This document shows, one piece after another, positions 1,635-30,334 of a DNA stretch of 64,000 bases. Made by a program: the position numbers and the translations under genes. The DNA is from Dysidea avara (taxonomy: Eukaryota > Porifera > Demospongiae > Dictyoceratida > Dysideidae). The stretch is taken from assembly GCF_963678975.1 (NCBI RefSeq), contig NC_089277.1, positions 23,572,672 through 23,636,671 of the forward strand, given 5' to 3'. Under the pieces are notes generated by a model. That model did not search any database and was not told the origin of the DNA. It worked only from the letters and a program-made list of their open reading frames with translations. Positions within the stretch are counted from its first letter, which is position 1. Each line of letters begins with the position of its first letter.

Positions 1635-1954
1635 TCTAATCCAAAACAGCCAAGCTGTAAAAAAAGTGTGCGGCCCTCAGAAAGGCTATGGTGAAAAAAG
1701 ATGTGAAATCCAAGGTGGTGGCCAAGAAATGGCTGTGATGGTAGGTTAATGGTAAAAATTTTAATAACGACAATTCAGGTGAATTTTTGTGCCGCTTCAC
1801 AAAATTTACCTAAATTGTCATTATTAAAATTTTTACCATTAACCTACCATCACAGCCATTTCTTGGCCGCCACCTTGGATTTCACATCTTTTTTCACCAT
1901 AGCCTTTCTGAGGGCCGCACACTTTTTTTACAGCTTGGCTGTTTTGGATTAGAT
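1635..1954. repeat. 320 bp near-perfect palindrome (5' end of Helitron-like element)
   Basis: Arms of about 155 bp run from TCTAATCCAAAACAGCCAAG to its complement at 1935-1954, with the centre near 1795. The small open frame at 1749-1952 reads through one arm and is an artefact of it. The same palindrome closes the second copy (39313-39638), so it is a structural part of the element. If transcribed it would form a long double-stranded RNA hairpin. Confidence 0.9.
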
Positions 1955-2124
1955 TTCATTTCTTTTTGTATTTGTATACCCCAAAGCCGGCCTATGGCCA
2001 GCTTTGGGACTTTTTTAACCTATGTTTTTTTCTTTACTACAGGAAGAAGAAAAGATGAAGTAGATGTACTTTAAATATTTTATCAGTAAAATTAATGTAC
2101 AAATTATATATACTGTATAATACA

Positions 2125-2367
2125 TATGTGACTGGATTTGCGAAAAGGGGTCTTCCACACACATCCAATTTGCCAACTTTGACAATTGATAACTTCAGAT
2201 TGGAAAGAGCTATTGCCTTGAATTTTGGACAGTGGTGAGCACCACTATAGCTGAATACGTGATGAAATTTTCAGATTAATATGTTACTTGAACACTGAGT
2301 TATGGTCTCCAACGGTTACGGAATTGGATGTGTGTGGAAGACCCCTATTCGCAAATCTGGTCACATA
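2125..2367. mobile_element. MITE with GTGACTGGATTTGCGAAAAG inverted ends
   Basis: The left end TATGTGACTGG...GGTCTTCCACACACATCC is matched inverted by GGATGTGTGTGGAAGACC...CTGGTCACATA, giving arms of about 45 bp and a total of 243 bp. A diverged relative with an internal insertion lies at 42829-43316. It is nested inside the Helitron-like element, because copy 2 passes directly from spacer to array at the equivalent place. It has no coding capacity. Confidence 0.75.
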
Positions 2368-2393
2368 ATATTATATTGATTACAGAAATCTCC

Positions 2394-5300
2394 ATGGTGG
2401 TTTCTTTGTAACTGAACACTGTACTAGGTGACTTCTTCTAATTGCTCTCTCTACAGGGTGAATTGTTTGTAGCTGAACGATCTACAAGGTAACTTCTTCT
2501 AGCTGATCTCTCTACAGGGTGATGTGTTTGTAGCTGAATTCTGTATAGGTGATTTGTTTGCAGCTGAGTTCTTTACAGAATGGTTTCTTTGTAGCTGAAC
2601 TCTCTAAAAGGTAACTTCTTCTAACTTATCTTTCTACAGGGCAATTTGTTTCTGGCAGAATTTTCTACAGGGTGATTTCTTTGCAGCTGAACTCTCTACA
2701 TGGTGGTTTCTTTGTAGCTGAACTCTCTACAAGGTAATTTCTTCTAGCTGATCTCTCTACAGGGAGGTTTGTTTGTAGCTGAACTATCTACAAGGTAACT
2801 TCTTATAGCTGATCTCTCTACAGGGTGATCTGTTCGTAGTTGAATTCTGTACAGGTGATTTGTTTGCAGCTGAGCTCTTTACAAAATGGTTTCTTTGTAG
2901 CTGAACTTTCTCCAAGGTAACTTCTTCTAACTGATCTTTCTACAGGGTGATTTGTTTGTAGCTGAATTCTGTACAAGTGATTTGTTTGCAGCTGAGCTCT
3001 TTACAGAATGGTTTCTTTGTAGCTGAACTCTCTACAGGGTGATTTGTTTGTAGCTGAAATCCCTACAAGGTAACTTCTTCTAGCTGATCTTTCTACAGGG
3101 CGATTTGTTTGTAGCTGAGTTCTCTACAGGGTGTTTGTTTGCAGCTGAATTCTCTACATGGTGGTTTCTTTATAGCTGAACTCTCTACAAGGTGACTTCT
3201 TCTAGCTGATCTCTCTACAGGGTGATTTGTTTGTAGCTGAACTCTCTACAGGTGATTTGTTTGTAGCTGAACTCTCTACAAGGCGATACTTCTAGGTGAT
3301 CTCTCTACAGGATTCCTTGTTTCTAACTGAACTCTCAACAGGGTGATCTGTTCATAGCTGAACTTTCTACTGGGTGATTTGTTTGCAGCTGAACTCTCTA
3401 AATGGTGGTTTCTTTGTAGCTGAACTCTCTACAACGTGACTTCTTCTAGCTGAACTCTCTACAACGTGACTTGTTTCTAGCTGATCTCTCTACAGGGTAA
3501 CTTGTTTGTAGCTGAACTCTCTACAGGTGATTTGTTTGTAGCTGAACTCTCTACATGGTGGTTTCGTTGTAGCTGAACTCTCTACAAGGTAACTTCTTCT
3601 AGCTGATCTTTTTACACTGCATATTTGTTTGTAGCTGAGTTCTCTACAGGGTGATTTGTTTGCAGCTGAACTCTCTACATGGGAGTTTCATTGTAGCTGA
3701 ACTCTCTACAATGTGACTTCTTCTAGCTGAACTCTCTACAGGGTGACTTGTTTCTAGCTGAACTCTCTATAGGTGATTTGTTTGCAGCTGAACTCTCTAC
3801 ATGGTGGTTTCTTTGTAGCTGAACTCTCTACAAGGTAACTTCTTCTAGCCGATCTTTCTACAAGGTGATTGAGTTTTTTGCAGCTGAACTCTTTACATGG
3901 TGGTTGCTTTGTAGCTGAACTCTCTAAAAGGTGACTTCTTCTAGCTGAACTCTCTACAGGATGATTTGTTTGCAGCTGAACTCTCTACGTGGTAGTTTCT
4001 TTGTAGCTGAACTCTCTACAATGTGACTTCTTCTAGCTGAACTCTCTACAGGGTGACTTGTTTTTAGCTGATCTCTCTACAGGGTGACTTGTTTCTAGCT
4101 GAACTCTCTACAGGTGATTTGTTTGCAGCTGAACTCTCTACATGGTGGTTTCTTTGTAGCTGAACTCTCTACAAGGTAACTTCTTCTAGCTGATCTTTCT
4201 ACAGGGTGATTTGTTTGTAGCTGAATTCTCTACAGGGTGATTTATTTGCAGCTTAACTCTCTACAAGGTGACTTCTTCTAGCTGAACTCTCCACAGGATG
4301 ATTTGTTTGCAGCTGAACTCTCTACATGGTAGTTTCTTTGGAGCTGAACTCTCTACAATGTGACTTCTTCTAGCTGAACTCTCTACAGGGTGACTTGTTT
4401 TTAGCTGATCTCTCTACAGGGTGACTCGTTTCTAGCTGAACTCTCTACAGGTGATTTGTTTGCAGCTGAACTCTCTACATGGTGGTTTCTTTGTAGCTGA
4501 ACTCTCTACAAGGTAACTTCTTCTAGCTGATCTTTCTACAGGGTGATTTGTTTGTAGCTGAATTCTCTACAGGGTGATTTGTTTGTAGCTGAGTTCTCTA
4601 CAGGGTGATTTGTTTGCAGCTGAACTCTACATGGTACTTTCTTTGTAGCTCTACAGTGTGACTTCTTCTAGCTGAACTCTCTACAAGGTGACTTGTTTCT
4701 AGCTGATCTCTCTACAGGGTGACTTGTTTCTAGCTGAACTCTCTACAGGTGATTTGTTTGCAACTGAACTCTCTACATGGTTTATTTCTTTGTAACTGAA
4801 CTCCCTGCAAGGTGACTTCTTCTAGCTGATCTCTCTACAGGGAGATTTGTTTGTAGCTTAACTCTCTACAGGTGATTTGTTTGCAGCTGAACTCTCTACA
4901 TGATGGTTTCTTTGTAGCTGAACTCTCTACAAGGTAATTTCTTCTAACTGATCTCTCTACAGGCCGATTTGTTTGTAGCTGAACTCTCTACATGATGGTT
5001 TCTTTGTAGCTGAACTCTCTACAAGGTGATTTCTTCTATAGCTGATCTTTCTACAGGGTGATTTGTTTGTACCTGAACTCTCTACATGATGGTTTCTTTG
5101 TAGCTGAACTCTCTACAAGGTAACTTCTTCTAGCTGATCTCTCTACAGGACAATTTGTTTGTAACTGAACTCTCACATGATTGCTTCTTTGAAGCTGAAC
5201 TCTCTACAAGGTGATTTCTTCTAGCTGATCTTTCTACAGGGTGATTTGTTTGTAGCAGAACTCTCTACAAGGAAACTTCTTCTAGCTGATCTCTCTACAG

Positions 5301-6030
5301 GGAGATTTGTTTGTAGCTGAACTCTCTATACATGATTTGTTTGCGGCTGAATTCTCTACATGATGGTTTCTTTGTAGCTGAACTCTCTACAAGGTAACTT
5401 CTTCTAGCTGATCTCTTTACAGGGTGAATTGTTTGTAGCTGAACGATCTACAAGGTAACTTCTTCTAACTGATCTCTCTACAGGGTGATTTGTCTGTAGC
5501 TGAACTCTCTACAAGGAAACCTCTTTTAACTGAGCTCTGTACAGGGTGAATTGTTTGTAGCTGAACTATCTACAAGGTAACTTCTTCTAGCTGATCTCTC
5601 TACAGAATGATTTGTTTGTAGCTGAACTATCTACAAGGTAACTTCTTCTAGCTGATCTCTCTACAGGGTGATTTGTTTGTAGCTGAATTCTGTATAGGTG
5701 ATTTGTTTGCAGCTGAGCTCTTTACAGAATGGTTTCTTTGTAGCTGAACTCTCTACAAGGTAACTTCTTCTAGCTGATGTATCTACAGGGTCACTAGTTT
5801 GTAGCTGAATTCTCTACATTGTGGTTTCTTTGTAACTGAACTATCTATAAGGTGACATCTTCTAGCTGATCTTTCAACAGGGTGATTTGTTTGTAACTGA
5901 ACTCTCTACAAGAAAACTTCTTCTAACTGAAGTCTGAACAGGGTGAATTGTTTGTAGCTGAACTCTCTACAGGGTGATTTGTTTGTAGCTGATCTCTATA
6001 CAGGTTACTTATTTCTAACTGATCTCTTGA
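2394..6030 (+). repeat. Minisatellite array, 30-31 bp unit, about 3.6 kb
   Basis: The array holds over a hundred tandem units built on TAGCTGAACTCTCTACA followed by a variable half. Three unit types alternate: GGTGATTTGTTTG, GGTAACTTCTTC and GGTGGTTTCTTTG. They often form 60 or 90 bp higher-order blocks. No long reading frame runs through it. The array ends at the motif GACTGCTCTATTAGAGTATC near 6070. The second copy (37995-39215, inverted) is only about 1.2 kb, so the array length is variable. Confidence 0.95.
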
Positions 6031-6249
6031 ATTCTGTTCAGGGTGACTGCTCTATTAGGATGACTGCTCTATTAGAGTATCTCGATCTCGCACTTGCTAC
6101 ACCAAGTTGGATTTCGTGTTATAACTCCGTGGCTTTAAGTCTGATTTTTCTACACCATTGAAGAGCCTTTCTAAGATGATAACTCCATCTGTACAGCGAT
6201 TTTCAAAGCATTACCCCAAGTGGTTTATCTGGTAGGCGTGGCAAGCATA

Positions 6250-6271
6250 ATAATAATAATAATAATAAAAA
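6250..6271. repeat. (TAA)n microsatellite
   Basis: A short run of TAA/AAT trinucleotides in the 3' tail of the Helitron-like element. Nothing coding is associated with it. Confidence 0.9.
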
Positions 6272-6901
6272 TTAGCTAATCTTGATTGCGTAATTGTTAC
6301 ACACTGTTGATTTTTTCGCTGTATCTTCCTGGTTTTTAGCTCGATTTCTTTCAAACCACAAAAGGTTTGAGGTTCAATAGTTAACCTATTCACCCACCGA
6401 TTTTCAGCTTCTTCCCATACGCGGTTTACCCTGTAGGCGTGACAACATATTGGTGTTATGTTTCGTGCATAATCGTTCATAACTCTTTGCCTGTTTATGG
6501 TATTCCAGCCAAAGTTGGTACAGAGATGCGCCTTTATACCCCCTTTTGTGTGCCAAATTTCAAGGCAACCGGATAACGCGTTCGCGTGTTATAGCAGTTT
6601 TTGTAAGTGTGCGAAAAGAGGAAGAAAAATAAGAAGAAAAAAAAAAACGAAGAAACTAAGCCAATTTTTGAAGTCGCATATCTCAGGAATGCCTGAAGCG
6701 ATTTCGCTCAAATTTGGAATGTGGAGTACTGAAGTTGGAGGGAATGTACACAGCAAAATTTGTCTTGTTTCATCAAGGCAGCACAGAGCTACGGAGGTGC
6801 GAAAATTGCGTTTTCTTTCTTCCTGTCAATATACTCACGGGGTTGCGCGCCGGCTTCTTGGGCCGCACGACACACTACCGTGTGTCTTGATTACAGACTA
6901 G

Positions 6902-7600
6902 TGAGATCTTGGTTAATTAATGACAGTGGTTGGAGATTAAGTGTGGTAGCTTCTTGTTCTTGAATATGTTGCACAGTGGAAGTACAAATCAAAATGGGAT
7001 ATCAATTTCATTATGAAAAATTTGCATACATAAATAATCTAGCATTACTATTTCATTTGTCCTCCACTTAAACATGCTACAACAGTACTAGTGTCAGTAC
7101 ATTGGCAGTGAGTCTACCTTGAAATCTCTACTCTAGAATAGATCCAACACAGGACAGCCCGCACTATAACAAATACACGTGATCCCATTGTAATTTCATG
7201 GACCAGCTGGACTGGGAATCACTTGAAAATAGACGAACAAATTTAACCTGTTTTGTTTGAAGTGAAGCATGTGAAATGTTACACTTAAGAAATCCTACGA
7301 TTCTTAGGTGGTATGTAATTAATGTGAGTGTTCCATTTCAGGTCTGACTAGATACATTGAAATTACACACACATCCTGGTCCAAATCACGTTTGCCTGGT
7401 GGCTACGGGCATGGTTTCACATGTGGCTTATAATAGAGATTTGGCTGATCTTGGAGTTTTGGCATTTAGCCTGATTCAAGGCTAGCAGTCAGACACATCC
7501 TTGAATTGTGCAACAGATAAAATCAGCTCACTATTGAATACGGCATTAGTCCACTGCACCAGCTGTTAATATATAAATAACTCCATGCATACACTTCAGT
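6902..7600. other. Intergenic, no recognisable feature
   Basis: AT-rich unique-looking sequence between the Helitron-like element and the inverted GGAAC repeat. I see no coding region, RNA gene or terminal repeats. Confidence 0.5.
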
Positions 7601-7609
7601 GATATTTGC

Positions 7610-8087
7610 AGAATATACCCTCCTTGCGGTCTGCCAAAATATTTGCTCCTCACACACTGCACAAAATTCTTCAAGTTTTAATTCAGCTGGCTCTTTCCTG
7701 TTACCAGTATTTTCCTGCTTGCTTTATTTATACACTGACTTATGACTTGAAAGACCGGCCCAGACTGTTTTCTAAAGTCTAAATAAGAAAAACAGCTCAC
7801 ATAAAGTTCCCTTCCGTATGGATGAACATCACTGATACAGCTCATCCCACAATAATACTTCGTTACTAATGACAACCAACAAAAACCCACAATCGATCCG
7901 TTAATTGTTTTTATCTTATGTTTAATCACCCACTGGAGATGCCACTGCTAACTTATAAGGGAAGTTTCAGCAATGGCAAGTTGCAAGCTTCAATTTGAGA
8001 AAGCGTTCCGTTCCGTGGTTTAGTCCATCATTCCGTTCCGTTCCGTTCCGTTCCGTTCCGTAGAATAGTCCCCACCTGTCTCTGGTA
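7610..8087 (-). repeat. GGAAC-rich dispersed repeat, copy 2 (inverted)
   Basis: On the minus strand it starts GGGGACTATTCTACGGAACG with at least five tandem GGAAC pentamers (8035-8063 on the plus strand), versus two in copy 1. It then follows copy 1 for several hundred bases. Together copies 1 and 2 make a large inverted pair flanking the Helitron-like element. The minus-strand open frames at 7678-7929 and 7967-8269 lie in it and are not supported as genes. Confidence 0.6.
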
Positions 8088-9425: not shown

Positions 9426-12409
9426 CTATACAATATCATACTGGTAATCATAATAAAATCTATCTAGGTGTGTCTTAAACAAATTGGTTGAATGAACATT
9501 AACTGAGTCATATGGGAGTCCATTCCAATCATTTATAATTCTTACTGAATAAAAGTGACGGCGTGGCAAGCAGGTAGCGTGTGGTTTATAGATCTTTAAA
9601 TCATGACCTCTTGTTATAAAAGATGATCGAAGGGTAAATAAAGATGAGCTATCCATGTCCAGCATGTTATGAAATAGTCTGTATGTGTAAATTAAGTCCC
9701 CTCTACGACGTCGATATCTGAGAGATGGTAAGTTTAGGTGGTTTAATCTGTCAACATATTGCAAGTCTTTAATTTCGCTCACTAACTTGGTAGCTCTTCA
9801 TTGAATTTTTTCAACTGACTGCTGATCGAGTATGAACTGTGGACCCCATATAATATTTCCATATTCTAATATGGGACGAACAAAGGATTTGTACAGTTGG
9901 AGTAACACGTTGGTGTTCAAGTACTCAAACGATTTATTAATCACAACTAGTATACGATTAGCTCTTGCAGTTACTATAGCAGTATGGTTATGAAACTTCA
10001 GAGAAGAGTCAACGATGATTCCCAAATCTTTGACTGACTCAGTAGATGTTATAACATTACCGTCAATACAATAATTTCCATAGGAGTGGGTGAGACCTAA
10101 ATGCAAAACATAACACTTGCTAATATTAAAATTAAGCAACCAGGTTCTCGACCATTCAAACAATATATCAATATCCCGTTGAAGTTGTAAGTAATCGGCT
10201 TCACATCTAATTGATCGAAAGATCTTGGCATCATCAGCAAATAGTAAGATTGGGCTGTCCACAGATAACGGAATATCATTAACATATAATAGAAAGAGCA
10301 GGGGGCCAAGGACTGAACCTTGGGGAACCCCACTAGAGACTGTGGACCAACTAGAGTGATCACCATTAAGCACAACTCGTTGCCTTCTACCAGAAAGAAA
10401 ATTCTGTACCCATCTTAGTAGAGACCCGCCCATGCCATATGCCTTCAATTTCATCAGTAGTCGATTATGAGGGACAGAATCAAATGCCTTTCGGAAATCT
10501 AAATATATAATGTCAACAGGATAGCCATCATTAAGTGATTGGGTCCAGTAGTCCATTGCTGTAAGAAGCTGTGTTGTGCACGACCTGCCAGCAATGAAAC
10601 CATGTTGGCTTGGAGAAAATAAACTGTTAGTGAGCATGTGGTGTGTGATATGATCTTTAATGATTGACTCCAAAATTCGGACTATAGGTGACGTTAAACT
10701 TATTGGACGGTAGTTATCAGCAGCAGAACGATTTCCCTTCTTGTGAATTGGTGTGACATGGGCGTGTTTCCAACTACTAGGGAGACAGCTACTACTAAGT
10801 GACTTTTTAAACAGTATACACAATGGAACACTAAGCTGTAAAGCAGTTTCCTTTAATGAGAGTAGAGGCCAACCATCAGGTCCTGATGATTTGTTTACAT
10901 TGATTTTCTCTAACCTGTCAAGTACAATGGATGGTGTTATATCGACATCATTAAGTGTTGGTACTGTGTGATCAAGATGAAATGAAGGTACTGAGGATGT
11001 ATCCTCTCTAGTATATACACTGGCAAAATGATTGTTGAAAACATTAGCCATCTCAGTGTTGGAGTGTGTCATGGAGCCATCAGCATGTTGTAGACAATTG
11101 ATACTAGACTTTGATTTTAATCTGGAGTTTGCATATTTCCAAAATACTTTCTGGTTAGTTTTAATATTGGAGGCGATTTTCTCTTCATATAACTTGCGAA
11201 GAGACCTTGTCAAACTACGCAGCTCATTTCTGGCTTTGCTATTATAGTGAATAGTCTGTCTTTGTGCCAGATAGCTTATACTGTTTCCAAAGCTTACATT
11301 TTTTTTTCTTCATACGAAATGCTTCACGTGTCATGTAAATGTTTTCCTTCTTCATTTTAAGTGCATGGCAGGGTATACATTCCTTAAGAATCAACTCATA
11401 ATGAGAGGCAAATACATCCCATGCTTGATGAATGTCTAAGGAACTTAATGTATCATCCCAGTCTATAGCCTCCAGCAAAGTCCGCATCCTGTCAAAATCA
11501 GCTTGATGAAGGTTGTACCTTGGCTTGTTATCATGGATGTACTTACCATAACATGTTAAAACAAATTTGAGACAAACATGATCACTCAAACCGAGACCAG
11601 GGAGATGTTGTATATCAGATATCATTCCTTCTTCATTTGTGAAAACAAGATCAAGTAAACTGGAAGAGGAGCTACGATGTCGTGTTGGTTCCAGTACATG
11701 TTGAAAGAGATATATATCTTGAACAGTATCAAGAAATAGCTGTTCACAATGAGCTGGTGCTGATGGTAATGACCAATCTATGTTAGGGTAATTAAAGTCT
11801 CCACATATTAGGACATGAGAAAACTTGAGACTAGGAATTGACTTCAGAAGCTCACACAGGGAATTAGTACTACTTAATAACTCAGAAGATGGGCTTCGAT
11901 AGATACACCCAATGAGTAAATTATCACAACCTTTGAGCGAAATTGAGATCCAAATATGTTCTTGAAAGCTGGAGCCTGTGAAATGATATTCCAAGACAGA
12001 TATTCTTTTTGAAATATATATACCTACACCACGAGTGCTAGTGGTTGGTTGACAGCCATCAGGATCAAAATTAAAAAAACATATTGTAACCATCCAAGGA
12101 TAGTCTCGAAGAAGAAATAGTGTTACAATGGCTCTTTGGCAGGATTTCACTGATCAGAATTATGTCAGGTTCATTGCCAGCAATGAACATCTGTAGTTCA
12201 TCACGCTTATTAAGAAACTGATCAGCATTAGTATAAAAGACTGTTAAGGATTGAAAGTCAAAGTCAGGTGACTCACTATCAGAGTTATTGTCACTGTCAT
12301 AATCACTATCTGGGGTATCAGATGTAGTGTAAATAGAGAGGTCAGGAGAAAAGTCACATTGGTCACTATAACTTAAATCAGATGTAATGGACATGGAATG
12401 GTTCATCAC
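9426..12409 (-). pseudogene. LINE ORF2: endonuclease-reverse transcriptase, three small lesions
   Basis: The endonuclease part holds FYTNADQFLNKRDEL, PDIILISE, GVGIYIS, LIGCIYRSPSS, LICGDFNYPNIDW and LSDHVCLKF, in the expected order for the APE-like fold. The reverse transcriptase follows with GPDGWP, RPISLTSPIVRILESI, QHGFIAGRSCTTQLL, YLDFRKAFDSVPH, SGVPQGSVLGPLLFLLYVND and the catalytic FADDAK. A LINE-type C-terminal segment (FVRPILEYGNIIWGP, then RRGDLIYTYRLFHNML) ends near 9429. Lesions: a frameshift in a run of seven T (minus strand) near 12075; a one-base shift near 11243; and a TGA near 9802 where the related 31 kb LINE has an Arg codon (a CpG change would explain it). FADDAK instead of the commoner FADDTK is a mild variant. 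Confidence 0.88.
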
Positions 12410-12425
12410 GCCAGTGCGAGAGTCG

Positions 12426-13445
12426 TCAGGAGTGTTGATTAGTAGTACCAGTGTTTGGCACTGAAGTGGTGTTACTTCTAGCAGTAGGTTTGGTGATTAC
12501 AGCTCCGTTACGAATTACAAGGTTGGTCTCACCTTGTGAACGTCTGCTTCTAAGTTCTGAAACTAATTTTCTGTGCTTTTCCCTCTCAAACTTGGTTCTG
12601 TCAGGGACTATGAATACATTCTTATAAGAGTCATTATGGCGCAACAGATAAGAGCGGGAGAGTAACATAAGTTTGTCCTGTTCATTCTCCAAGCACAATA
12701 ACAATGGCCTATGTTTATTCACTATTTTCTTTCCCAAACGTACTGACTTTGTGATAGTACATGCACAATTGTAGACAGAGGAACAAAGAGTTGCAAAAGC
12801 ATCACCATCACTTTTACCATTAGGAGTAGACTCAGGCAGGTTGTAAACAATTATATTCTTCTTCCTTCTGTCACGGTCAGCAAGCTCATCGATTATACTA
12901 AGAGCAGAACTGGTAGGAGGCACAGTTGCAGAAATAGTTTGACCTGGATTAAGAGAATCTGAGGTGGTTTCAATTTCCATATGAAGATTGTTGTTAGAAG
13001 TGGACAGAGCAGTAATTTTTGATGATAAATCATCAATAGACTGTTGTAGCTTCTTGCATGTATCCTCCAGGGATACTGCACTTGTTGCCTCAAAACATTT
13101 AGTAAGGTGCTGACCAATTCCTTTAAGCAACTTATTTTCCATGGATTGAAATCTGTTTTCAAATTCAATATCAAGTTTAGAGTAGGTCTTGTACAGGAAA
13201 AGAGCTTCTGAAACTTCAGGTAAGCAGCGACAACAGAAAAAGGCTACATTCTCATAATTACACAGCTCAAAATCCTTCTCATGAATTGAAGCACAAGATC
13301 TATGTTCCCATTCAGAGCACCAGTCGCAGGAGATACAGTCCTCAACCACAGCTTCATCACATTTGACACAAAGATCTACTTTAGCTGACTTATCCGATGA
13401 TTTATCTGGTGTACTATTCGGTGATCTAGGTTTCTTGAATGGCAT
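12426..13445 (-). CDS. LINE ORF1 protein with PHD finger and RRM-like domain
   Basis: The product is a 339-residue RNA-binding, chaperone-type protein that packages LINE RNA. Residues about 26-75 form a PHD-like zinc finger with CVKCDE, CISCDWC, EHRSC and CCRC spacing. Residues about 95-175 are rich in heptad-like Leu/Ile and probably form a coiled coil. Residues about 190-325 start DRRKKNIIVYNLPES and continue through VRLGKK, RPLLLCLEN and KNVFIVPDRTKFEREKHRKL, resembling the RRM plus C-terminal domain of L1/CR1-type ORF1 proteins. The frame is intact. It ends 16 bases before the first ORF2 codon seen (12409), an arrangement that suits coupled translation of ORF2. Confidence 0.85.
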   Translation of the reverse strand: MPFKKPRSPNSTPDKSSDKSAKVDLCVKCDEAVVEDCISCDWCSEWEHRSCASIHEKDFELCNYENVAFFCCRCLPEVSEALFLYKTYSKLDIEFENRFQSMENKLLKGIGQHLTKCFEATSAVSLEDTCKKLQQSIDDLSSKITALSTSNNNLHMEIETTSDSLNPGQTISATVPPTSSALSIIDELADRDRRKKNIIVYNLPESTPNGKSDGDAFATLCSSVYNCACTITKSVRLGKKIVNKHRPLLLCLENEQDKLMLLSRSYLLRHNDSYKNVFIVPDRTKFEREKHRKLVSELRSRRSQGETNLVIRNGAVITKPTARSNTTSVPNTGTTNQHS

Positions 13446-13600
13446 CTCCGGTTAGTACCCACTTGCTGTGAAAGAAAGCTACAAACGACTGTACAATAGA
13501 ATTGCGCTCGCCTTTCGTGGTACCGTTAAGTATGCCACGGTACAACAGCTTTTGGGAGTAAGGTGAGGTGTACCGTGGCGAGTGCAGAGGAGGTCGAATA

Positions 13601-18770: not shown

Positions 18771-19532
18771 TTATTTGGTACACACCACGCAGGTTAGTTC
18801 TTTGTCACTACAAGTAATGAAGTGGCCACAGTGTGCTTCGACTGTGTAGAAGAGATATCCATTGGTGTCACTTCCACTACCTGGTATCTGTTCAAGGGTT
18901 CTGTCAATACAAGTAAACTGTGTAGCTGCTTTGTGACCATGATATCCAGCCATAAGATAGCCGTAGTACTCAGTATTCCATCCTGGAGGACACTTGTAAT
19001 GAGAAGGAATCATCATCTTGCTGGTGCGGCCACTAGCTTGACACATTGCACAAGGCACATTACGGTCATAGCTGTGGTCTAGTGGAGTATGATGTGTCTG
19101 ATATTCTGCTCCGAATAATTGCACCCAATTTTGATAACCTGGCTGGGATTTGAGGTACTGTGGGTCATGTGGTAAACACAATGGATCAACTGCAGCTCCT
19201 TCATGGAGATGATTTGATCCAGCTACAACTCCAGAGTAGATGGTATCTGCTCCATAGGGACAAGTAGAATTACCCCATCTAACATAGGTGACTCCTGCAG
19301 CAGGTGGACAAGCGCATTTGTCATTGCTAGCAGCTGCAGCTACAGAACGTTGTTCAGATTTTTTTGCGATCTCATTTGTGTCTCCAGTGTTTGGTTTAAC
19401 CATGATCTTTGACTCAAGTTGTTGTATCTTAGCAAGTAGGTAGGAGACTAGTGGATCTTCACTGGTGGCCTCCACAGCATCCGTGAGGATGAAGGTGGCA
19501 AACAGCAACAGAACAAACACCTTTATCTCCAT
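18771..19532 (-). CDS. Secreted protein related to short-chain collagen C4 C-terminal domain
   Basis: An intact single-exon frame of 253 residues. Residues 1-19 (EIKVFVLLLFATFILTDA) form a signal peptide, and residues 26-45 (LVSYLLAKIQQLESKI) a short amphipathic helix that could oligomerise. From CACPP at about residue 73 the protein matches the conserved domain found at the C-terminus of sponge short-chain collagen C4: YVRWGNSTCPYGADTIYSGV, GAEYQTH, VPCAMCQ, MIPSHYKCPPGW, YYGYLMAG, CIDRTLEQIPGS, then LFYTVEAHCGHF and CVVCTK. Unlike classic C4 collagens there are no Gly-X-Y repeats between helix and domain. It is probably extracellular, perhaps matrix or body-surface. A broken paralogue lies at 44774-45582. 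Promoter elements were not identified. Confidence 0.85.
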   Translation of the reverse strand: MEIKVFVLLLFATFILTDAVEATSEDPLVSYLLAKIQQLESKIMVKPNTGDTNEIAKKSEQRSVAAAASNDKCACPPAAGVTYVRWGNSTCPYGADTIYSGVVAGSNHLHEGAAVDPLCLPHDPQYLKSQPGYQNWVQLFGAEYQTHHTPLDHSYDRNVPCAMCQASGRTSKMMIPSHYKCPPGWNTEYYGYLMAGYHGHKAATQFTCIDRTLEQIPGSGSDTNGYLFYTVEAHCGHFITCSDKELTCVVCTK

Positions 19533-19847
19533 AACATTGACCTATTGATATTATTGTTCATTGCATTGCAAATAAATTCATGAGTAGAACATAGTACTAA
19601 CATTGTTTAAACATAAGGTTAAGAATAAAAATCTCTTGAATTATCAGTTTTACTAGACTGCTTTATTGGAGTATATGACTGTTCTATTAGAGTATCACAA
19701 TGTTTACAAGTATAGTGGCTAAGCATCCTTTGAAATAAGTTGCTAGTCATTTTGCTGTTAATACCTTGCATAGTATAATAAATAGTCTACAGCCATCTTA
19801 GCAATCTCAATGATATACATGTGTCACAACATATACAGCAATACATG

Positions 19848-24410: not shown

Positions 24411-25118
24411 TCGCCCATACCTAAAACTCACAAAAATACTCCTACCACGTGGCCATTTTTATGTCTGTTGCGTAAGCTCACAAGAAGCATCTGATACACT
24501 GATAACCAAGTCCAAGAATCTTGTAATCACTAAGTACAATTGAAACAAGACTAAATATAATATAATTTGCATACTCTCAGTGGACTTACTTTTGTTAGCA
24601 ATACGAGTATGGTCAGTGAAGTAAGGACAAACAAGATGAAACAGGTTCTTGAAAGCACTCAACACATTTACAGTGCCAGACGTACATGAGGTAGCAGCCA
24701 TCAGTTGTTGATAAAAAGTAGTAGAAAACATGAAGAAATGAGACCAGTTCCCAGAAGAAATGAGACCAGTTTCCATAAACCTAAACGAAGGTAAATATAA
24801 ATTGTATATTGGACACTCTCAGTGTACTTACTCACAGTTGTTGGCAATAAGAAGAATCTCCTAGAACTGAGACTAAGTCTGTAATTCCTACCCTATTGAA
24901 AAGAAAATGAATAAAAATACAATCAGGCCTAACGCATTTACAGCTGTAATTAATTAGAAGAACTCCGTGAAAAAAGAACAAAACTGTCCACATATGTCGC
25001 TACCAGATTCTTTAAAGAAAACAGCTGCCATTGAAGGAAACTAACACTGCAGATGTTGTACACTAACAACCTGTAGAACTAAGAGGTCCGATAAGAAACT
25101 GCAGTACCTCTGAAGAGA

Positions 25119-25177
25119 TAGTCTCGCGGCGCCCGACCCTAAAAAGAGGGTCTGGTGAAACTGTGTACGAAAAGTTT
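25119..25177 (+). repeat. Left terminal inverted repeat of the AcademH-like transposon
   Basis: It matches the complement of 30025-30083 at 58 of 59 positions. It contains the internal hairpin at 25135-25152. It ends about 118 bp before the transposase start codon and therefore probably contributes to its promoter. Confidence 0.95.
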
Positions 25178-25294
25178 TCGCTTAGGAATTTAAATTGTGT
25201 GACGTTAGTGAATTATTGCATAACTGTAAAAATGAATCAATATCGTTAAGTACTGAAAAATCCGGTGGTATACTAGTAGGTAGTTCTGTAGTTC

Positions 25295-28200
25295 ATGGCA
25301 ATACTCGTGCCTTGCTGTTTGCTATGTGGAGCTGCTTTACCAGAATCTAAATGCAGAAGGAGTGTTTTGTCGAACGAAGGGAATAATGTTAAGCGGGTAG
25401 TTGAAGATTATGTGCGGAAAGAACTGTGCATCAGCTATCTTGCAGAAGAGTTTAGAAACTAACAGACAGAATGTCTATAAGCCTGACAAAAATGTTTTAG
25501 TGGCAGTTATTGCTGGTGTGATGTTGAGAAACTGTAGCCAGCGTGCCAATTTCCTGCAATCTGTAATTTCACTGCTTTTGTATTCTAATCATTGTCCAAA
25601 ACAGGTACATAGTTGTAATTGTAAATTTTGGATTGAGGCATAGCCTGTACATCCAAATTTAGTTAACGACATGTGTGTATTGCCATTGTGCTTTTTCTAG
25701 ATATTCAGGTGCTTACACAAAGCATGCCTGTGTTTGTCACATAGAACCACAGTGCAGCTTGTGGATGATTTTGGAAAGGAGCATGATAAGCCTGTGAATA
25801 CCTGGCATGATGAAATATTTGAAAGACAATTGCTAAAGGTTTGCAAAAGCATTTTGTTGTGCTGGATTACTGTTTATATCATTATAGAATGTACCATGCT
25901 AGAATCCTAGTGACACTGCCAACCATAGCACTGTGAATCCTGGTGCTACTACTGCAGTAACTATTGAATCCAATGTGTTTTGTGATCCAAAGGCTGGTGA
26001 AACAAATGACGAATGGAACAGTAGTGTACAATCATCTCAAGACAGTAGTAGCGCTGATACTTTTTGTAATTTATTATCTTCTCCCATTGCACCAAGGTTT
26101 TCTCCTGTACTTACAGCTTCTGACACTGCAGAGTCTTCTGGGACAGAAGAGTTTTTTGATTTCCTTTGTTCTGAATTGCCCATGTCAACCTTTAAGTTTG
26201 TAGCTGATAATGTTGATTTTTACATTAGACCCAGACAGGAAACATTGGACCATCATGCTTACTCTTTACATTGTACACATATAATGGCAGTGAAGGATAG
26301 AGTTGACTGTTCAGTTCTGAGTGATACACCTCGTTCTGTTGATATTGCATCAGTAGACTTTGAAACAGTGTTACCTAATCATAATGACTTGAAAGGTTTG
26401 AAAGAAAATCTGACCATTCTTCTGTCAAGAACCGTTAGAGCGCATATGCCATTCTTTCGCAAACATATCAGTGTGAAAGCAGTCCCTCAACACATACAAC
26501 ATCAGTTTTCAAGTGAGATGTCCAGCAAGTCAGAGGTGGTAAGAAGTTCATTACTTTGTATACATATGCATAGCTAATACATGTACAGTATCACTCAAAC
26601 ACATCACCTTGTGAGAGTGAAAGTGATTAAAAAACGTGCTAATCAATGGCACTCTCAAGTATTCATTCTGTTTTGTTTGAGATGCAAGCAAAATTGGTGC
26701 CACCCCTTTAATTAGTAAGGTTGCTCTCTCCCGCAAGACGTGTTGCATTTGAGCAGTACATATCATACGTGTATGTCAGGATGATGATGAATACAGTATG
26801 CGTGTATGATGCCTATATATGTTATTATAGCATACTGTACCAAACTAACATAGATGCGCTTATTCAATAGTTTTACTATGTAGGTTCCATTAGGTGTAAT
26901 GCTCAAGAATGAGAACAAGCAAGATGAAATGATTTGTGTGCTGGAAAAGCTTATGGAGTATGTTCCATCTGTTACTACTGTAGACAGTGTTGTTGATCCT
27001 GACACTGAGGAAACAGTAAATTTGGTATCACACAAATTTCATCGTGTGATGTGTGGCGGAGATCAATTAACTGCAGAACGCATCCGTGGCTGTAAAAGAA
27101 CTAAAAGCAACTCAAATACAGATAAAGAAAGATTGCAAGGATTAGAACTCGTAGTAGAAGATTGGCATTCAAAGGTTGCGCTATTAAAAGTAAGCAAGCA
27201 AGTACAAAGTAGGTATGATTCCCTTTAAATTAGTGCAATAAACAACTTGACTGTACCTAATTATGTATGTGTGTTATGTACGTTTACAACTGTTTGATTT
27301 CCATATTTTATAGGTAATATGGAAGAGATTGTATAATACCTCCTCAGGCATGGACACCTGTACGCTTTATCATTTGCGTAATCAGTTACAAAGGAGAGCT
27401 GTCACTAAGAAGGTTAAGACTGACCCCACAAGTTGTGAAGATTTTTTCTGTTAGTCACTACTGGCCATCTGTAATATGCAGTGATGTCTGCTATTGGTAT
27501 GTTATCATTAGAAGATTCACCATCAGATGAATGTTATTCTGATTTTGCCAATAAATCTGAAGGAGAGCGCAAGGAAATTTTTGAAGAACAATGCGAGATG
27601 TCTTGGACTCCCATTTAAACATTGAAACCATCACTTTACCATCAAGTGAAGAAAGTAGCAATGAACAGCCATCACCCAATATCATTTCAGCTTGCAATGA
27701 AGATGAAGAACAACATGCACCATGTAATAAGACAAGCAACAACTCTGTTTTAGCATATGCTAATGAAGTTTTTTCATTAGGGCTTTTGTTGATGGAGTTT
27801 ATTGATGCTGTTAAGGAAGGAGATGGGCAAAGAATATTGACATGTTGGAAGTACATGCTGTTATATCACATAAAACTAAATATTCAATTGAAGCATTTCA
27901 TTTACTTGCACACTATAATTACATATACAGTGAAAGATTGTGCAGACAGTTACTCTGGAGTCGTACCATTAATGTTCATGGAAAGCCTGGTAAAAATATT
28001 TCCATGGATTTACACATGGAACACCTGAACAGAGACTTTAAAACTGTAGTTAGTCACTTAAAACCCAACACCCTTGGTCCATCCTTACAAAGAACTGGAA
28101 GAGCATTGAAGATTTTAAGAGAAATTCAATCTCACTATGACGAGGTTACATGTGTAACAACTGAATCTGCGTATCATTCATCCAGAAACAGCAATAAGGA

Positions 28201-28297
28201 CCTACCCATGGTAATAGAACAATTGCAAAAAGCAGAAGTGTTCAGAATGATTGAAAACCGTCAACACCAGCAATTTTCTGACAGGCAGTTTACTTAA
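25295..28297 (+). pseudogene. DUF6589-type transposase (Academ family), decayed
   Basis: Begins MAILVPCCLLCGAALP, a zinc-ribbon-like start (CCLLC, later CGKNC). Probable exons: about 25295-25610 (SVISLLLYSNHCPKQ), 25700-25839 (RCLHKACLCLSHRTTVQLVD), 25888-26538 (contains FKFVADNVDFYIRPR), 26884-27189 (MCGGDQLTAERIRG, LVVEDWHSKVALLK), and 27314 onward (IWKRLYNTSSGMDTCTLYHL, LRNQLQRR). The C-terminal part reads EAFHLLAHYNYIYSERL, LLWSRTINVHGKPGKNI and LHMEHLNRDFKT. These are the conserved blocks of DUF6589. Asp in ADNVD, Asp in GGDQ and Glu in MEHLN are plausible DDE residues (inference). Lesions: a one-base frameshift near 25413, a TAG near 25900, frame changes and a TAA near 27450-27475, and shifts near 27600 and 27850. 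Confidence 0.85.
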
Positions 28298-28487
28298 CAA
28301 ATTGGATACATATGAACTTAGGGACTGGATGACATCTCAACTTCGCAGTATTTTACGCTACTGTATTCAAGACAGTCTTTAGTTTCTGATATGTGTGGCA
28401 GTTAATATCAATATAGTTATTTTCATTAATTAAAATCTGTGGTGCAACAGTAAGATAATCATTGTAAAATATATAAATAAGATATTG

Positions 28488-29973
28488 TTAACACAAGCCA
28501 CAACAGCAAGCTGTGGCACAAATATCACAGCACAGACAGCCTGCTGGTCTACTTCCATCGTACGAGTCAAAATCCTGGAAAAGAGTGTGTCGCCTACATT
28601 GGAGATTGCAGTAATCTTTCATGCTGTCTTCAATGTGCCCTAGTTCAAGATCGTTGTTGGAAAAATACAGTACAGCATGAGATACCTGTCCATCTCGTCC
28701 AGTCTCCTGCACTTAACTTTCTACATCGGAGGGTGGGCCCCAATGTATAATTCTATGAACATTAGAACAATCCATTCCCATACCAAATGCCACTGTAGCT
28801 ACTATTATTCTAAGCCTTCCTTCAGGCTGTGTAAAAGACTTTACAATGCCTTCTTTCACATCAACACTGGTACAAGCTGTAAACATGTCCATCAATCTAA
28901 ATCGAGAAATATCAGGGTACCCAATAGGATTCATCATCTCTTTACCTAGCATGCTTTTAAAGAATAGATATATATGATCTGTGTCCTCATATGTCCTACA
29001 GAAAATTATTGTTTTGTTAGTGTTTCTGCGATTCTTACTGAGCTCTTCTACTAGGGAAGCAAATGTTTCTTCAATATCTGCAATCTTCTTTGTTACTTTA
29101 TATACAATGTTTGGCTTCTCAGGAGATCTTATTATCATTACTGGCTTTACCAAACCAAGAGACTTACAGATATCTTTTCTTGTTTGTTTAGTAGCTGTGG
29201 CTGTCATTGCCATTATGTTAACAGATGTGTCCAACAATCCTCTCATTTCACCAAGATTCGAATACTCTTGTCTGAATTCTTTACCCCTACATTAAAAATG
29301 AGTGGAAGCATACACTACATGATACTTATATGCTAGTTAGTTTAGTATTACAGTGACACAATTATTGACTGGTTAAAACATCATGATAGCTAACACTAAG
29401 CTTGCCATTTCTTGATACAGTGTGCTTCGTCCACAGCTATACCAACTAGGCGATCATGATAGGTCTTTGAACGGAAGATGTCTACCCAGCTTTTGTCTCC
29501 AAGCAGTAATTCAGGGCTTATAAATATTACAGAATAGTCACCTGCACTTAATTTAGTTTTGATGGTTTCATCTTCATGGTCAAACTTTTCTTGAACATAA
29601 ATGGATTGTACACCCTTCTGTACTAGGGACCGCGCCTGATCTTTCATTAGTGCCTGTAAAGGGCTTACTACTGTAACAATGATAATTGAGTATGGACTTT
29701 CTCTTTTAGACAGTCATAGACCCATGGTAAGCTCGAGTAGCAGAACGATTTACCATAGCCAGTAGGAAGAGACAAAAACAAATCCTGTCCCAACACGAAA
29801 GACTTAACTGCACCTTGCTGGCACGGCTTCAATTCAGTGAATCCAAGTCGCCATGCCACTGTAGTGACAACAGAAGACAACTTTCTATCTTCAATGTAAT
29901 GATATTTACAGTTGGAACTCGAAGCCATAAAACTATCCACGTAAGAATCCACATAATTACTAGGTTGCGTCAC
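28488..29973 (-). pseudogene. RecQ-like helicase of the AcademH-like transposon
   Basis: A superfamily 2 helicase read from MTQPSNYVDSYVDSF (29973), in two exons (29973-29406 and 29286-28488) joined by a GC-AG intron within the KKW/GKEF codons. Motifs in order: GFTELKPCQQGAV (motif 0), LPTGYGKS (Walker A), VVSPLQALMKDQ (Ia), VDEAHCIKKW (DEAH box), MAMTATAT (III), KTIIFCRTYEDTD (IV), RIIVATVAFGMGMDCSNV (V) and VQETGRDGQ (VI). A Cys cluster CRRH...CCDIC resembles the RecQ zinc-binding region. Lesions: a one-base shift near 29697 before the SIIIV strand, and a TAA in place of Tyr immediately before motif VI near 28710. It presumably aids strand separation or repair during transposition (inference from AcademH). 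Confidence 0.85.
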
Positions 29974-30024
29974 TAATTACAAATGGAGCAATCTGATTGG
30001 AGCTTCCAACATTCCGGCAGCGCC

Positions 30025-30083
30025 AAACTTTTTGTACACAGTTTCACCAGACCCTCTTTTTAGGGTCGGGCGCCGCGAGACTA
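30025..30083 (-). repeat. Right terminal inverted repeat of the AcademH-like transposon
   Basis: Inverted partner of 25119-25177 with one mismatch. It starts about 50 bp upstream of the helicase start codon, so the repeat may supply the helicase promoter. The duplicated target CTGAAGAGA follows directly. Confidence 0.95.
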
Positions 30084-30334
30084 CTGAAGAGATAATATAC
30101 AAAATCATAAGAGCAGACCATGCATACTCTTACTGTTGATGGCTGATGAACTGTATCCACTCATCATCCGCCATAAGCTGAGATAACAGGTTATAAAATA
30201 TGTAATACGTACGCAGCAACCAAAGTTGAATCATTTGCAGGCCGTTGTCATACAATACACAATAAACAATTTAATATGGCTAAACCTATCGTACAAACTA
30301 TCATTTTAGTCTAATACTTACTCATTTAGAGCTG

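Follow-up and report, generated by a model that had tools for sequence, protein, structure and literature searches.

Genome-wide pairing of a DUF6589 gene with a RecQ-like helicase gene around a probable AcademH-type transposon of the sponge Dysidea avara

The closest described relatives of the element considered here belong to the AcademH lineage, of which Kojima 2020 is reportedly the founding paper. In PMC10045372, AcademX and AcademH are placed in the same superfamily, with target site duplications (TSDs) of 3 or 4 bp in AcademX and 9 or 10 bp in AcademH, a difference in length that is tied there to the possession of a nuclease or a helicase. The window analysed in this study is a stretch of 64,000 nt from Dysidea avara (contig NC_089277.1, positions 23,572,672 to 23,636,671 of the forward strand), and positions 25119-30083 of the window (4,965 bp) are occupied by a DNA transposon with inverted ends. 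Its two genes are convergent, a DUF6589 gene on the + strand and a RecQ-family helicase gene on the - strand, and with a probability of roughly 0.92 it is a decayed AcademH-type cut-and-paste transposon carrying both. The element probably belongs to a lineage already published, and the part of it that is possibly new is the architecture of its ends, which may be undescribed so far; a literature search for Academ in sponges or for Academ end structure returned no title naming either among the titles listed.

The terminal inverted repeats (TIRs) lie at 25119-25177 (+ strand) and 30025-30083 (- strand); they are 59 nt long, with 58 of the 59 positions paired (98% complementary), and the element ends start 5′-TA. 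A 9-bp TSD, CTGAAGAGA, could be read straight from the sequence at 25110-25118 and 30084-30092. Empty sites were sought in the host genome (550.8 Mb, 108 contigs) with a query of 246 bases in which the two flanks (window 24980-25118 and 30093-30199) were fused around a single 9-mer. The best 40 of 233 candidates were scored, and all 40 matched the joined flanks at 91-96%, each with at least 233 of the 246 bases and each spanning the junction. Since the joined flanks match across the junction elsewhere, the insertion is real, and the same junction-spanning matches place the element inside a high-copy repeat whose other copies are without it. The left 291 bp beyond the element end itself has four matching places elsewhere in the genome, at 78-96% identity.

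When the + strand open pieces were searched with the DUF6589 family model (PF20231), matches were found at 26884-27228 (41.8 bits), 27585-28028 (17.4 bits) and 27815-28297 (53.8 bits), the first and third above the family cut-off of 27 bits and the 17.4-bit piece below it. Three open pieces of the - strand matched the RecQ-family model TIGR00614 (E 2.7e-29, 4.4e-16 and 7.1e-7), all below the whole-protein cut-off of the model because the pieces are fragments. One helicase piece matched Helicase_C above cut-off, one matched PDB chains of RecQ, WRN, RECQ5, RECQ4, RECQ1 and BLM, and a profile search gave no match to the RQC domain in the window helicase pieces. In an alignment of transposases, the Asp of GDQLT and that of DWH are common to the five rows covering them, and within the DxHxEHLN motif D214 and E218 are invariant in nine rows. 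Thus the features that an earlier note had described from the letters of this DNA alone, namely 59-bp inverted ends with one mismatch, a 9-bp target duplication and convergent genes with DUF6589 blocks in one of them, were all confirmed, and profile searches of the two products, which that note had proposed, yielded DUF6589 and RecQ-family matches. Outside the host, 23 stretches of viral contigs fitted a pattern used to look for DUF6589 relatives and none was confirmed; a literature search for DUF6589 found no paper.

The same pairing recurs across the host genome. A search with PF20231 gave at least 111 matches, merged into at least 95 clusters, and a search with the helicase protein gave at least 152 matches, of which 150 were listed, grouped into at least 130 clusters. 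A helicase match was present within 4 kb of 92 of the 95 DUF6589 clusters, 88 of these 92 pairs are convergent, and the gap between the paired genes is 443-948 bp in 89 of them; by simple arithmetic, fewer than one pair would be expected by chance. From a sample of 60 stretches, in which the helicase was found in 43, a DUF6589 segment in 45 and both in 38, three of the 38 were dropped as repeat copies; the remaining 35 contain 16 non-redundant pairs. Over these 16 pairs the distances between helicases follow those between transposases (Mantel r 0.76, Spearman 0.59, a value reached by none of 9999 permutations for the Mantel r), so that the two genes have diverged in step. As a separate observation, the locus G000 (C1:8549563-8550465) has a DUF6589 match in an open frame of 1,745 aa, the 4 kb around it being free of helicase matches, and may represent another lineage or a gene that has been domesticated.

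Both ends were in hand for four full elements (the window element and loci L089, L090 and L091), and an exact 9-bp TSD was found in all four. L090 measures 5,794 bp with 237-bp inverted ends and L091 5,551 bp with inverted ends of ~188 bp; of a fifth full-length copy, L092, one end only is in view. A genome search with the element end, also proposed in the earlier note, found 763 occurrences of the 21-bp tip of the window element at no more than 2 mismatches, 100 of these places being listed; a copy number of a few hundred is suggested by this count. Twenty short copies chosen from the listed places have lengths of 59-918 bp, and together with further micro-copies an exact 9-bp duplication, varying in sequence, was seen in 24 of 31 (18 of 20 in the first set, 6 of 11 in the further micro-copies). 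Thirteen of the 20 are 413-415 bp long, with 109-112 bp of one end matching the helicase-side end of the element at 95-97%, 88 bp of the other end matching the opposite side at 86-89%, and a middle without match. The earlier note had regarded copies with the same ends and neither gene as grounds for giving up its reading. Such copies literally exist; since the 413-415 bp copies share the element's own ends, they look like derivatives of the deletion type and are no argument against the element, and short gene-less copies with the same ends are the non-autonomous partners to be expected. The micro-copies L080-L082 and L093-L103 (n = 14, 49-69 bp) consist of little beyond two joined tips, with 13 different cores and exact 9-bp duplications in 8 of 14, and may be read as products of internal deletion rather than as a family that spreads. 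Similar micro-copies with other tips occur as well, for example at C1:8804024-8804096. In the stretch of L091, positions 1883-7891 hold a full AcademH-type element nested in a related end pair that has its own exact 9-bp duplication, CTACCTAGC. Eight further loci (L050-L056 and L062) agree in every one of the 100 bp read at their right ends and have flanks that differ, and seven of them have equal helicase scores and an uninterrupted frame; this family has probably moved recently.

The architecture of the ends was compared in 12 families with a readable end. In all 12, a [G/C]GTCTG motif begins 31-77 bp from the tip, inverted relative to the terminal GCCAGACC-type motif, against a mean of 0.41 and a maximum of 4 of 12 in a shuffle control that is post hoc, the dyad motif having been picked after viewing these ends and then tested on them. 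The stem sum over the 12 ends, which come from related families with repeated copies and are not independent draws, was 108, whereas the highest of 1000 shuffles gave 95; five families taken singly (F01, F06, F08, F10 and F12) have stem scores that do not reach p 0.05. A first count had found the motif in 10 of 11 ends, the exception being L067, the outer tip of which belongs to another element; its inner tip, found only with 2 mismatches allowed, matches L064/L065 and has the dyad. Before the count of 12 families F10 was replaced and F12 (L092) added, and L058, close to F04, was not counted separately. No recognisable end was seen in L043, L047, L049 and L066. Of five further ends checked, L108 alone has a recognisable end with the motifs, the other four (L105, L106, L107 and L109) lying outside the 12 families; an automatic TIR search of 12 stitched stretches, which were too short, found none.

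In the window element, a member of F01, the terminal arm of the left dyad, CGCCCGACCCT, lies at 25130-25140 (position 12 of the end) and the inverted subterminal arm, AGGGTCTGGTG, at 25147-25157 (position 29), both on the + strand; dyad analysis placed the right subterminal arm at 30045-30055 and the right terminal arm at 30062-30072, both on the - strand. Across families the arms pair with matched changes, for example CCAGACGG/CCGTCTGG versus CCAGACCC/GGGTCTGG. Genome-wide, 3,016 tips fit TAGTCTSGCGNNGCCMGMCC, and 842 of them have GGTCTGG after a gap of 1-31 and 1,050 after a gap of 32-62, some of the latter being micro-copies whose opposite tip is read; one scrambled motif, used as a control, gave 0 cases in the 1-31 range. 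A further palindrome, GCTTATCGATT...ATTATAAGCG, is found inside the dyad, starting 35-39 bp from the tip, in F05, F07, F10, F11 and F12 and in L108, and is nearly invariant while the helicases of these five families share 38-52% identity. The five fall in one helicase subclade (support 100/99), in which F09 (L061) is without the palindrome and three other members gave no ends.

Several points weigh against the AcademH assignment or against a firm partnership of the two genes. Three of the 95 DUF6589 clusters have no helicase match, four of the 92 pairs are not convergent, and 39 of the 130 helicase clusters have no scored DUF6589 neighbour; one of these 39, L042, has a DUF6589 segment by tblastn, and presumably they include host genes and decayed copies. 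Seven of the 31 short copies are without an exact 9-bp duplication, with mismatches at 1 to 7 of the 9 positions. The match to AcademH is one of gene content, TSD and TIRs, and DUF6589 is assumed to be the Academ transposase. A PDB profile search with DUF6589 gave three weak matches (E 0.07-0.92), the best being a designed helical repeat protein, and the role of the helicase in transposition is a prediction.

Other explanations of the locus fare worse. That no discrete insertion is present, and that the ends form a chance or composite inverted repeat, has practically no probability, the 40 scored empty sites, the exact 9-bp duplication and the left 291-bp stretch found elsewhere ruling this out. 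It is very improbable that the element picked up its helicase from a RecQ gene of the host and that transposition does not depend on it. The profile does place it in the RecQ family, but in a tree with E. coli RecQ, Cronobacter RecQ, human WRN, human BLM and one host BLM-like gene (L104, named so by its best PDB match) the 16 non-redundant helicases form one clade (support 100/99) apart from the RecQ rows, and the host gene groups with human BLM (98/96). The tree covers one host RecQ, and its five RecQ rows are segments taken from printed alignments; against capture stand also the coupling in 92 of 95 clusters and the common divergence of helicase and transposase. The earlier note would have been overturned by a tree joining this gene to the RecQ proteins of the host, and the gene fell apart from the BLM-like RecQ, the only one of the host in the tree. 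The chances of a KolobokH-type element, combining a Kolobok transposase with a RecQ helicase, are slighter still. In PMC9587614, KolobokH has a RecQ helicase aboard a DDD/E transposon, as here, and one rhodophyte Kolobok carries its RecQ helicase on the complementary strand, yet Kolobok elements make 4-bp TTAA duplications and have 5′-RR ends, whereas the duplications here are 9 bp and varied and the ends start 5′-TA; KolobokH was rejected because target duplication and end sequence contradict it.

With an AcademH-type element thus preferred, the dyad at its ends can be read in more than one way, the safer being a putative protein-binding signal and the bolder a hairpin. Single-strand folding of 11 ends, over lengths chosen by the analyst, was in clear excess in five (z -7.7, -4.4, -3.7, -2.6 and -2.1), weak in two (z -1.7 and -1.5) and without excess in four (z -0.69 to +0.77), one of these four (L067) being the end of another element. 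Since folding is strong in only five of the 11, the protein-binding reading is the safer. It is unlikely that the ends fold as single-stranded hairpins exposed by the helicase, the dyad then being structural and not only a binding site: the matched changes of the arms, a stem sum above the shuffle maximum and the five folding ends would agree with this, but six ends fold weakly or without excess, the terminal arm in F06 and F08 has drifted while the subterminal motif is kept, and the stem alone does no better than shuffles at p 0.05 in five of the 12 families, the last two points fitting a protein-binding site better. A shade more doubtful is a two-site end code shared by AcademH transposons, with the dyad wrapped in several families around the inner palindrome, in which the dyad or palindrome would form a cruciform or hairpin that is opened or resolved by the element's own RecQ-like helicase; if this were true, AcademH would be a DDE transposon with helicase-dependent end processing.

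The genes of the window copy itself are decayed. On the + strand, an open frame at 25903-26540 without Pfam match is assumed to encode the N-terminal portion of the transposase, with a splice donor placed by eye at ~26540; the exon with the GDQLT and DWH motifs (DUF6589 positions 70-154) spans 26884-27188 and is followed by a putative intron to ~27312, also placed by eye. The remaining transposase gene, located by profile match and alignment, lies at 27313-28297 with the DAVKEGDG and DLHMEHLN motifs, and its reading is broken by one stop and several frame shifts. On the - strand, a helicase exon at 29420-29976 holds the Q motif, Walker A and the DEAH box, with one frame shift near 29700. An intron follows at 29292-29419, with boundaries set by eye and a donor-like sequence at the same place in L090, and then an exon at 28488-29291 with motifs III-VI and a RecQ-type cysteine cluster, where an in-frame stop (28713-28715) lies just ahead of motif VI and a 9-bp in-frame deletion (~28693) takes out part of motif VI that is kept in the sibling L089 and in other families. 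The window copy is dead, both genes being broken. The earlier note was therefore right about a RecQ-type helicase and wrong in crediting it with all motifs 0-VI, motif VI being partly deleted.

Among the copies compared, L089 (contig C8; 6,426 bp between the ends, TSD TTGCAAAAG) is closest to the window copy, which it exceeds by ~1.46 kb through a single large insert close to the left end of L089. The two copies differ by 0.8-2.8%, exons and introns of both genes alike, a figure that excludes the left 200 bp, which the global alignment misplaces against L089 and where the value of 0.58 is an artefact. Changes at codon positions 1/2/3 number 6/4/5 in the helicase (two stretches) and 12/8/10 in the transposase (three stretches), with nonsynonymous to synonymous codons at 13:2 and 18:11, respectively, and neither gene shows protein-level selection since the split from L089. 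Frame-shifting length changes in this alignment are more numerous in the transposase, of which, however, a longer stretch than of the helicase was aligned. The idea in the earlier note that a less decayed helicase gene might reflect different selection was rejected, because third codon positions are not enriched in either gene, the counts being flat against an even divergence. Its AcademH interpretation is thus supported in part, by the 9-bp TSD, the 92/95 pairing and the RecQ-like helicase, and loses the intact motifs and the different selection.

Elsewhere in the window, the - strand at 9798-13451 encodes a reverse transcriptase domain (RVT_1, E 1.6e-35), with further open frames upstream, in what we take to be a non-LTR-type retrotransposon. 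A 256-aa open frame without Pfam match lies at 18771-19541, also on the - strand, and its product resembles sponge short-chain collagen C4-like proteins.

How an AcademH-type element of this kind might move can be outlined from its parts. The DUF6589 protein would be a DDE transposase that recognises, at both ends, the terminal motif together with the inverted copy of it further in, excises the element and inserts it into target DNA through cuts staggered by 9 bp. The helicase, which comes from the element itself rather than from the host, would open DNA either at the ends or where strand transfer takes place, and its action could explain a stagger longer than that of the nuclease-coupled AcademX; full copies would mobilise in trans the short copies that keep only the ends. 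In at least 12 families a DUF6589 gene is linked to a RecQ-like helicase of the element's own; exceptions are few, and the genes co-diverge. Such tight coupling makes the role of the helicase testable by dropping one gene in a donor assay, and the shared end dyad is a concrete cis target for both proteins. For these purposes the surrounding genome is more useful than the window copy, a dead member of a published lineage.

Among other elements that carry a helicase, Helitrons have neither inverted ends nor target duplications. The present element has inverted ends and a 9-bp TSD, and Helitron was rejected on these grounds and on its use of a HUH nuclease with single-strand transposition, as described in PMC12730594. 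With the RecQ helicases BLM, WRN and RecQ, the helicase shares its core and, as seen by eye, a RecQ-like cysteine cluster; it differs from them in that the element helicases form a separate clade and the frame stops shortly after the cysteine cluster, as seen in the window copy, L017, L040, L043 and L089, where the end is visible. The nuclease of AcademX is of the XPG type. Four matches to XPG_I were found in the genome, none of them, when compared by eye, near a listed DUF6589 match, and therefore an AcademX-type pairing was not found. AcademX was rejected on this result and on the 9-bp TSD, against 3-4 bp in PMC10045372, the element having a helicase instead of a nuclease. With AcademH, by the same source, it has in common a helicase in the same element, TIRs and a 9-bp TSD, which falls within the published 9-10 bp.

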